A stretch of DNA of 20,702 nt, from the NCBI GenBank assembly GCA_030916665.1, contig JAUPWC010000042.1, forward strand, positions 1 to 20,702. Direction: 5' to 3'. Positions within the stretch are counted from its first letter, which is position 1; the number at the start of each line of letters is the position of its first letter. A model generated the notes under the pieces. That model was not told the DNA's origin, searched no databases, and was given only the letters and a program-made list of their open reading frames with translations. Origin of the DNA: Verrucomicrobiota bacterium. Lineage in GTDB: Bacteria; Verrucomicrobiota; Verrucomicrobiia; Opitutales; Opitutaceae. The position numbers were made by a program, and so were the translations under genes. Shown here piece after piece: positions 10,681-20,488 of the stretch.

Positions 10681-11070
10681 CTAACGGTCCCGCGATTTGA
10701 CTGGTTTCGTTTCCGGCGCCATCAGCCCGAGTGTGAGGCGCGTCTTCTTCGGCAGACCGGCGGCGACCAGGTCGAAGCTGCGGCGGATGCGCGCGTTCAG
10801 CTCCGTTTCGCTTAACGCCGCGAGATCGCCCACCTTCACCCACATCCGTTTCGCGCAGTAGGGCGCCTGGATGATGCCGTCATTTTCAGTGAGCTCGTCG
10901 AACTCATCCGGCGTGCATTTGAAAACCACACCCTCGATCGTGCTGCCGTCGGGCACGATGATCAGGAACATTTTCCCCGCGACCTTGAACACGTGGCAAC
11001 CGCCCCACTGGACGACCTTCGTGGTGTGGGGCAGCGACAGCGCGTGGCTTTGCAGGCGGGCGAGACGCAT
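10681..11070 (-). CDS. YjbR/MmcQ-family protein
   Basis: This is a 129-residue cytosolic protein of the YjbR/MmcQ (DUF419) family, a small CyaY-like fold in known members, often annotated DNA-binding without firm proof. Family-like stretches are LPHTTKVVQWGGCHVFKVAGK near the N-terminus, MFLIIVPDG, VVFKCTPDEFDEL and the C-terminal WVKVGDLAALSETELNARIRRSFDLVAAGLPKK. The start (ATG at 11070) gives MRLARLQSHALSLPHTT, just before the conserved block; a much longer frame upstream runs antisense to paralogue 2 and is not real. A possible promoter is TTGCCT, 17 bases, TTGGCT, giving a leader of about 10 bases. It is divergent from paralogue 2. The role is unknown. Confidence 0.85.
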   Translation of the reverse strand: MRLARLQSHALSLPHTTKVVQWGGCHVFKVAGKMFLIIVPDGSTIEGVVFKCTPDEFDELTENDGIIQAPYCAKRMWVKVGDLAALSETELNARIRRSFDLVAAGLPKKTRLTLGLMAPETKPVKSRDR

Positions 11071-11229
11071 GGGGGCGGTGCACCCGAGCCAAGTGGCCCT
11101 AAGCCAGGGAGGCAATCCGGCAGCAAATTGGCTGTCCGCAAATTGCCGCTCTTGTCTCCGCGCCCTGTGTCGATGTAGTGTGACGTTCCGATCCCATCCC
11201 GGTCGAATGTCCGCCCCCGCCATCACCCC

Positions 11230-15453: not shown

Positions 15454-15476
15454 CAAAGTTCGTAATACGAACTTTG
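15454..15476. repeat. Palindrome copy 1 (AAGTTCGTA-A-TACGAACTT core)
   Basis: A perfect 11-1-11 inverted repeat centred at 15465. It lies in the 281-base space between the lipoprotein start (15316) and the HTH gene, about 119 bases upstream of copy 2 and in the same orientation, with an A at the centre. It may be a second operator or a repeat end. The rest of this intergenic stretch shows nothing else I can name. Confidence 0.85.
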
Positions 15477-15571
15477 AACTTGGCGCATCTTGGCACTCCG
15501 CAGCGATAAAGCAGCCATATTCAGACGAGAAATGCCTCACCGTGGAGAAAAGACACAGGCTTGCCTTGATG

Positions 15572-15596
15572 CCAAAGTTCGTAATACGAACTTTGG
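15572..15596. repeat. Palindrome copy 2, at the HTH gene start
   Basis: A perfect 12-1-12 inverted repeat centred at 15584, ending 2 bases before the ATG at 15598. A possible promoter lies in it: TTGCC around 15562, 16 bases, TAATAC at 15582-15587. Binding here would block transcription or translation of the gene, as expected for an autoregulatory operator. The core is identical to copy 1. Confidence 0.85.
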
Positions 15597-15597
15597 T

Positions 15598-15966
15598 ATG
15601 GCTACTTACATGCCTTCGAGACTGGTGGGTATGATCGGGTTGGTGGACATCATTGACGCGCTCAGCCGGGATATGGAGCGGGAGATGCACAAGCGGCGCG
15701 AGGCGCGACGGCCGCGAATCAAGCGCGGGGCGACGCTCCGGCCGAGCGACGACACGCCGCTCTGGAATGCCGTGATTTCACTCGTGGAACCGCGCCTCGC
15801 GCGGCGCGGATCCAAGGCGTTGCTGGCGCGCGAACTGGGTCTGCACAAGGCCCGCGTGGGCGAGTTCTTCAAGCGGCGTTCCGCCATGCCCGATGCCGAA
15901 CGGACACTGCGTCTGCTGATCTGGCTCAGCCGCCAGCCGACCGAGAAATCCGACGCGGCGTTCTGA
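15598..15966 (+). CDS. Small HTH (XRE-like) protein bracketed by palindromes
   Basis: From the ATG at 15598 the product has 122 residues. The C-terminal part (about 52-112) reads DDTPLWNAVI, then GSKALLARELGLHKARVGEFFKRR, SAMPDAERTLRLLIWL: a helix-turn-helix of the XRE/lambda-repressor style, where SKALLARELGL would be helices 1-2 and HKARVGEFFKR the recognition helix. Residues 31-48 are strongly basic (HKRREARRPRIKRGATLR). It resembles short HTH proteins I associate with Opitutaceae, but I know no function. The N-terminus is uncertain (ATG 15610, 15673 or 15688 are alternatives, and the frame is open from 15490). A near-perfect palindrome ends just before the start and another overlaps its stop codon, so it probably binds those sequences. 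Confidence 0.75.
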   Translation: MATYMPSRLVGMIGLVDIIDALSRDMEREMHKRREARRPRIKRGATLRPSDDTPLWNAVISLVEPRLARRGSKALLARELGLHKARVGEFFKRRSAMPDAERTLRLLIWLSRQPTEKSDAAF

Positions 15967-15996
15967 ACCAAAAGTTCGTATTACGAACTTTGGTTC
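15965..15996. repeat. Palindrome copy 3, overlapping the HTH stop codon
   Basis: Core 15971-15991 is a perfect 10-1-10 inverted repeat with T at the centre, so it is the inverse orientation of copies 1 and 2. With one bulged base the stem extends out to GAACC (15965-15969) and GGTTC (15992-15996). It begins inside the TGA stop at 15964-15966 and would form a strong hairpin at the 3' end of the mRNA, so it may also act in termination. Confidence 0.82.
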
Positions 15997-18194: not shown

Positions 18195-18237
18195 GGGGCC
18201 GCCGCGTTTGGCGCCTATCCGCATAACCCTGCCTTGG

Positions 18238-18300
18238 GTGGGTCAGCGTGCTTGCACGCGCTGCATTTCGCCCGGAGCGCGACCAAGGTCGCTGGCCCAC
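18238..18300. repeat. Structured palindromic intergenic element
   Basis: An 11-base outer stem (18238-18248 with 18290-18300; one G-U pair) encloses smaller hairpins: GTGCTTGCAC at 18248-18257, GCGACC-AA-GGTCGC at 18279-18292 (which competes with the outer stem), and a possible GCGCT/AGCGC pairing. The whole 63 bases could fold as a branched structure. It lies in the 138-base gap after the gene ending at 18194 and before the minus-strand gene ending at 18333. It resembles short dispersed REP-like repeats, but only this copy is in the window. Confidence 0.5.
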
Positions 18301-20002: not shown

Positions 20003-20038
20003 TTGGCGGGAGCCGGCCGAGCCGCCACATTGGGGGGT
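20003..20038 (+). promoter_or_regulatory. Promoter of the DUF5069 gene
   Basis: TTGGCG (20003-20008), 17 bases, CACATT (20026-20031), then 7 bases to the ATG at 20039. The layout is close to the leaderless type seen at 8013, 13040, 16052 and 18969, but with a weaker -10 and one extra base. Confidence 0.4.
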
Positions 20039-20488
20039 ATGAAAATCCCCGGTTTGCGGAGTCCCCATGACAAGGTCGGCGGGTTGGTCTATTTTGGCCG
20101 GATGCTCGACAAGATCCGGTTGCACGCGGCGGGCAAACTGCCGGCGGACTATGTGGCCAACCTCGGGGAGAAGGACTGGTATTTCTATGACGCCCGCTGC
20201 TGCCGGTTCCTCGGGGTGAAATACCCGGCACTGGTGAAGCGCGTGAAGCGGGGCGGCACCGACGCCCAGATCCTGCGCTGGTGCTACAAGGAGGGCGGAA
20301 AGAAGAAGCCGGAGCAGATCGCGATCTGGAACACCTTCCTCGCCAAGCGCGGTTGGCGCGACGAGGCGAGCGGCGGCGTGGCGGAGGAGAAGGCCGCGAG
20401 CGGCCTGGGCCGCCGCAAGGACATCGTCACGTGGTTCGACCTGATCGACGCGGAGGAAGGCCGCAAACCCGCCGGCGTGATCGGCTGA
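20039..20488 (+). CDS. DUF5069-family protein
   Basis: This 149-residue soluble protein is recognised by its order: IPGLRSPHDKVGGLVYFGRM near the start (LRSPxxxVGGxVxxxRMLDK is the family's opening), then MLDKIRLHAAGKLPADY, DARCCRFLGVKYPALVKRVK and a lysine-rich tail. DUF5069 proteins are common in Verrucomicrobiota and have no assigned reaction. Start ATG 20039 matches the family opening. It stands alone, with a promoter just ahead and hairpins after it. Two adjacent cysteines (CC) within the core are a point of note. Confidence 0.8.
   Translation: MKIPGLRSPHDKVGGLVYFGRMLDKIRLHAAGKLPADYVANLGEKDWYFYDARCCRFLGVKYPALVKRVKRGGTDAQILRWCYKEGGKKKPEQIAIWNTFLAKRGWRDEASGGVAEEKAASGLGRRKDIVTWFDLIDAEEGRKPAGVIG

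Follow-up and report, generated by a model that had tools for sequence, protein, structure and literature searches.

A candidate REPIN-like palindromic repeat system centred on a helix-turn-helix protein in Opitutaceae

Introduction

REPINs with their RAYT transposases are the known example of a repeat population that is long-lived and linked to a single cognate gene. In the sections of the two papers drawn on here, a single cognate gene is flanked by its repeat and subfamilies have repeats of their own, and the dispersed unit consists of paired repeats with a preferred spacing, the populations persisting over long periods (PMC3116915; PMC8266576). Rickettsia palindromic elements (RPE), for which the source passage names no cognate gene, differ from the repeats described below, in which 21-bp palindromes make up 70-75-bp gene-less pairs (minis) accompanied by a cognate helix-turn-helix (HTH) gene.

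Here we analyse a 20,702-nucleotide stretch of DNA (the window) from an Opitutaceae genome that is 85% complete in 698 contigs (G000). The best explanation of its central locus is a gene-bearing unit, palindrome-HTH gene-palindrome, of an intragenomic palindromic repeat family of Opitutaceae, and the best overall reading is a REPIN-like repeat system, so far undescribed, with a non-catalytic HTH protein at its centre; our literature search found no paper describing this HTH/palindrome family. By analogy, the system appears to work like REPIN/RAYT and is not a member of it. By prediction the gene encodes an XRE/YdaS-like HTH protein in place of the Y1 HUH transposase of RAYT (REP-associated tyrosine transposase, TnpA-REP), and its repeats are near-perfect palindromes around one central base, whereas REPs are GTAG/CGTC-tagged imperfect hairpins. 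Furthermore, many of its sites lie in frame within genes, in contrast to REPs, which the cited part of PMC3116915 counts in extragenic space. We consider it rather probable that the HTH protein would bind its palindromes and maintain or mobilise them with host enzymes.

Results and Discussion

Organization of the window locus

The sequence-only reading described three near-identical perfect palindromes at 15454-15476, 15572-15596 and 15965-15996. Their positions hold, and perfection applies to the first two, the third having one extra A in its left arm. A search with AAGTTCGTA-N-TACGAACTT (up to three mismatches) returned 15456-15474, 15575-15593 and 15972-15990 in the window and no match in 100 dinucleotide shuffles, and the 21-mer AAAGTTCGTAWTACGAACTTT is common to all three palindromes (15455-15475, 15574-15594 and 15971-15991). 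Palindrome 1 (15454..15476; 23 bp, perfect) is the left partner of palindrome 2 at a spacing of 119 bp, and an orthologous 119-bp pair also precedes the HTH gene of G017, a genome identified as Oleiharenicola lentus. The spacer between the two (15477..15571; like the palindromes, without strand), upstream of the HTH gene, presumably contains the promoter of that gene. Palindrome 2 (15572..15596; 25 bp, perfect) adjoins the start codon as had been noted, its end being at 15596 and the ATG at 15598, and is presumed to be the operator and the 5' end of the unit. The HTH gene itself (15598..15966, plus strand; start inferred) encodes 122 aa with a predicted XRE/YdaS-like fold, and its TGA (15964-15966) indeed falls within the outer arm of palindrome 3 (15965..15996), which combines a 21-bp core (15971-15991) with imperfect outer arms and marks the 3' end of the unit. 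Homology with genome G011 runs from 15571 to 15994. The proposed inverted orientation of the copies rests solely on the central base (A, A and T), because each site is self-complementary.

The 122-aa protein belongs to an unnamed Opitutaceae family and is a probable Cro/XRE-type DNA binder on the basis of its predicted XRE-like HTH. The Y1 HUH transposase family is absent among its Pfam and NCBIfam matches, there is no invariant His or Tyr across 24 HTH homologues, and no catalytic domain was recognised. PHROGs and PADLOC gave weak matches that include regulators (best 6e-4 and 8e-3). XRE/Cro-type repressors, R-M controller proteins and YdaS act on a few local operators; the HTH protein described here differs from them in its genome-wide repeat population and in an extra conserved N-terminal motif of its family, LRPGxxTPLWN, with a predicted N-terminal helix. 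A phage or plasmid origin was considered and dropped, no HTH homologue being present in phage and plasmid records; neither of two palindrome patterns was found in viral contigs.

Palindrome type follows the HTH subfamily

As in REPIN/RAYT, the HTH gene is flanked by its own repeat: matching TA-N-TA palindromes stand on both sides in 44 of 83 homologous loci under a strict rule, compared with 0/1660 in block-shuffled sequence and 0/450 for pseudo-genes placed in other loci. The remaining 39 loci fail this rule, and a looser one gives matching flanks in part of them. In 37 of the 44 flanked loci, no more than 63 bp separate the stop codon from the centre of the 3' palindrome. Repeats around the cognate gene are subfamily-specific, a further likeness to REPIN/RAYT, with types that include GTTCG, GTAAC, GTCAC, GTCAAC, GTAGTC, TTTCAC and TTGCC; left and right palindromes agree at 16 arm positions in 34/44 loci versus 74/1892 cross-locus comparisons. 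Moreover, position -4 of the half-site covaries with the residue that follows QR(L/V)(H/Q) in the presumed recognition helix (D/E with C, V/L with T; z 10, mutual information 1.07 bits), one of several strong pairs by a statistic that ignores the relatedness of the loci. Subfamily specificity and this covariation make it very probable that the HTH protein has the palindrome as its cognate binding site. Up to eight HTH paralogues occur per genome, and mapping the palindromes against them revealed that many paralogues have palindromes of their own.

This covariation lends weight to the earlier suggestion of a self-regulating operator set, and the flanking palindromes may well be sites at which the HTH protein regulates its own gene. 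The covariation and the flanking sites would also suit a regulon under an XRE transcription factor that regulates its own gene. On that reading, to which we return with the sites inside genes, the palindromes are operators, and selection on binding, not movement, has spread them.

Apart from one resident subfamily, no recurrent partner gene was found in the HTH neighbourhoods: the recurrent ORFs either overlap the HTH gene or belong to a transporter-like gene that adjoins that subfamily in nine loci (L061, L062, L067, L072, L077, L078, L081, L101 and L102). We take this neighbour to be of EamA type. Flanking palindromes are present at L072 and L101 and were not found in most other transporter-adjacent loci; the subfamily is perhaps a resident, domesticated branch. 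Several HTH genes have a GC-rich palindrome of the type AAACCGCCGCGG...CCGCGGCGGTTT at a distance of about 1.1-1.4 kb (for example L062:66-95, L077:345-374 and L081:207-236).

The HTH proteins of G000 and G011 are more similar (76% identity) than those of G000 and G017 (68%), whereas the relatedness of the flanking DNA is the opposite. Horizontal transfer of the unit was not adopted on this ground, as one membrane-protein-like gene follows the unit in G000, G011 and G017, which leaves fast evolution possible. A segment about 4.5 kb upstream of the unit in the window (10724-11071) lies directly behind the unit in G017 (L150:8228-8575), where an extra palindrome pair with a spacing of 53 bp follows it; this different placement indicates that the HTH neighbourhood has been rearranged.

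Genome-wide distribution of the palindromes

A genome-wide search for the 21-base core showed numerous copies, whose occurrence goes with that of the cognate HTH gene. In the window genome, AAAGTTCGTAWTACGAACTTT has 33 copies with up to three mismatches, 20 of them exact, and its reversed control has none. The exact core GTTCGTANTACGAAC occurs 27, 8, 52 and 10 times in G000, G011, G017 and G019, the four genomes in which it flanks an HTH gene; the other 53 have 0-4 copies, and 47 of the 57, congeners included, have none. Similarly, GTMACSTANTASGTKAC has a median of seven copies in 39 family genomes with the HTH gene (none in seven) and a median of zero in 22 family genomes without a detected one (eight have 1-5), and it is absent from all 34 genomes from other families of the order, all reversed controls being zero.

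In a collection of 84,980 species, AAWGTTCGTANTACGAACWTT was found in 86 stretches. Of the 80 listed, 79 bear titles of Verrucomicrobia or Opitutales type, and an HTH gene is present in each of the six intervals of 394-398 bp. The sole other title among the listed matches with the window-type palindrome is that of a metagenome assembly labelled Actinomycetota (L376, WLRQ01000072), which may reflect transfer or mis-binning.

Copies in the window genome are mostly paired, with 52-54 bp as the commonest spacing there and in G017. Such doublets with a preferred spacing, 46-48 bp in G067 and 54 bp in G079, are another likeness to REPIN/RAYT. Helical phasing of the pairs was rejected: the spacings are non-uniform, yet the periodicity has p = 0.41 without the 52-54 class.

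The populations are also stable in position. For 12 of the 18 G000 site clusters, G017 has a cluster at the orthologous position, and the outer bases differ in concert, mostly AAA...TTT in G000 versus AAT...ATT in G017. Lacunisphaera limnophila (G003), in which the only HTH relative found has 43% identity and another palindrome, has decayed relics at both places examined. Comparison of empty and filled sites yielded both states for sites inside genes and no exact empty site of the gene-bearing unit: in G003, G015 and G012 the unit is absent from the stretch examined upstream of the membrane-protein-like gene, and the intervening DNA is unalignable.

MatP, Noc and ParB are named examples of chromosome-organising proteins. 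A protein of this type with dispersed binding sites would suit the spread of the 52 copies over both contigs of G017, the recurrence there of 12 of the 18 G000 clusters and the tolerance of sites within genes; it is hardly credible given that the exact core is missing from 47/57 genomes, congeners among them, that a genome has up to eight HTH paralogues, and that in G017 5 of 27 loci are no further than 50 kb from the HTH gene (p 2e-4, with the distance picked after seeing the data).

Gene-less palindrome pairs

Apart from the gene-bearing unit, the repeats occur mostly as minis, two palindromes around a short spacer with no gene, about 70-75 bp long and located between genes or in frame within them. 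We examined 13 regions of G067 (palindrome GTCACGTANTACGTGAC) picked for holding pairs. They contain 15 pairs of about 69 bp in both orientations, spaced 46-48 bp, with similar interiors (type GTTTCGCCCGGGGASTTTCAGAGGGG) and unrelated flanks, none inside predicted genes; the HTH gene of G067 is bracketed by two of them, and some copies in the genome listing are single. These properties suggest that the gene-less pairs behave like mobile units, and the dispersed minis favour the sequence-only proposal of a small mobile or selfish, REP-like unit. In being short, lacking a gene and having inverted ends and unrelated flanks at their dispersed locations, the minis resemble MITEs; they differ in that each end is itself a palindrome and that neither a parent transposase (in the HTH neighbourhoods) nor a target-site duplication was recognised, inspection by eye of the 15 G067 copies revealing inverted ends without such a duplication. 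G095, a congener of G067, has a similar mini elsewhere in its genome; the 1.6 kb that follows the gene ahead of one G067 mini contains none, and beyond that gene the DNA is unalignable.

In G079, the eight pairs examined are all spaced 54 bp, six of them within predicted genes; spacings of 45-46 and 66 bp occur as well. Most spacers of G000 and G017 bear no relation to one another; recent copying is thus seen in G067 only, and the G000 and G017 populations look older. An interior motif from G067, TTTCAGAGGGG, is enriched in the spacers of G000 (0/500 shuffles), G017 (p 0.002) and G079 (0.02), with no enrichment in the other named genomes (0.49).

Palindromes within genes

Using a home-made gene caller for G000, G017 and G079, we found that 19 of the 46 site clusters of G000 and G017 lie within genes, with one more partly so. 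In 16 of these 19 all palindromes share one reading frame, with the translation (K/N/D)VR(N/I)TN(F/I), and seven of nine in-gene pairs are spaced 54 bp; several of these cases are orthologues and therefore not independent. The intergenic clusters comprise 7 divergent, 5 convergent, 11 tandem and 2 unassigned cases, revealing no upstream or downstream bias.

A gene for an O-GlcNAc-transferase-type protein carries a pair in G000 and G017, a relic in G003 and neither in 12 others. The motif is present in 13 of the 120 best homologues of this protein (seven with one copy, six with two), and three pair-bearing proteins exceed the usual length by 25 codons, which equals one 75-bp mini. Pair and single forms differ by 18 codons, exactly one spacer plus palindrome, and protein P0176 is seven codons (21 bp) longer than two relatives at 85-87% identity. 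Four proteins have the motif elsewhere in the loop, which suggests independent events. A second gene, presumably RsmB-like, has a single palindrome at unchanged length in G000 and G017, a relic in G003, a pair (+18 codons) in G019 and no palindrome in the remaining 18 of 22. For MoeA, 30 of 120 homologues match the motif with no clear length change, related forms often having VRI at that place. The lack of length gain at the single sites of the RsmB-like gene and MoeA indicates that point change or replacement may create some sites.

Sites without length change, together with the concerted change at orthologous positions, would also be expected of the regulon outlined above. Against it stand the 19 of 46 clusters inside genes, the divergent, convergent and tandem arrangement of intergenic clusters without upstream bias, the spacer that the G067 minis have in common in addition to their palindromes, and the in-frame gains of 75 and 21 bp, which make a regulon very unlikely.

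The 75-bp in-frame gains resemble transposition. As the main alternative, the minis could be ordinary non-autonomous elements moved by an unlinked IS-type or RAYT-type transposase, with the HTH protein not driving them but captured as a passenger or acting as their repressor. The HTH protein looks like a pure DNA binder from its predicted fold, a hairpin repeat of another kind, GTAG-type, is present in the same region of G067, and Opitutus terrae is rich in GTAG repeats according to the part of PMC3733652 cited here. We regard this explanation as unlikely, because copy number and palindrome type track the cognate HTH gene and no other gene recurs beside it in the neighbourhoods compared.

A proposed mechanism

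The reading that we prefer, a repeat system served by the HTH protein, builds on gene-palindrome linkage, covariation, dispersal, in-frame gains and orthologous sites changing in concert, all seen by comparison of sequences. The HTH protein would recognise its own palindrome of about 21 bp as double-stranded DNA, might regulate itself through the flanking palindromes, and may maintain or spread the minis by recruiting host repair, replication or recombination enzymes. Such recruitment is suggested by the lack of a recognised catalytic domain and of a transposase gene shared by HTH neighbourhoods. Each HTH subfamily has its own palindrome and repeat population, the sites changing in step with the HTH. 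A more far-reaching version, possible rather than probable, is a transposase-free mobile repeat system in which a small non-catalytic DNA binder spreads and homogenises its own site through host repair or replication acting on protein-bound palindromes, with site and protein specificity co-evolving and several such systems existing side by side in one genome.

New here are a REPIN-like anatomy with an unrelated DNA-binding protein, many palindrome subfamilies and minis within protein genes. The protein-site pairs of the family form a natural series from which HTH specificity could be read, its minis are a source of in-frame protein insertions, and the system would test the idea that repeats lacking a transposase of their own can spread. 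O. lentus, with its 52 copies in two contigs, would make it testable.

Other features

Rfam gave nothing at gathering score in the window. Integron attC sites and Verrucomicrobia LexA sites were weighed as candidates and rejected, since their motifs are a poor match. ARAGORN called a tRNA-Pro (ggg) at 20371-20454, inside ORF 20003-20488; the call may be spurious, as Rfam reports none there. In G067, the GTAG-like hairpin repeat, which is different from the minis, was read from the letters between two genes (L293:4592-4712); at the matching junction in G095 22 bp separate the matches, with related pieces at other places in G095 and in further genomes. Finally, about 38 bases of the window (18213-18250) recur at four further places in the window genome and once in G018, at 88-95% identity, and appear to be another small repeat family.
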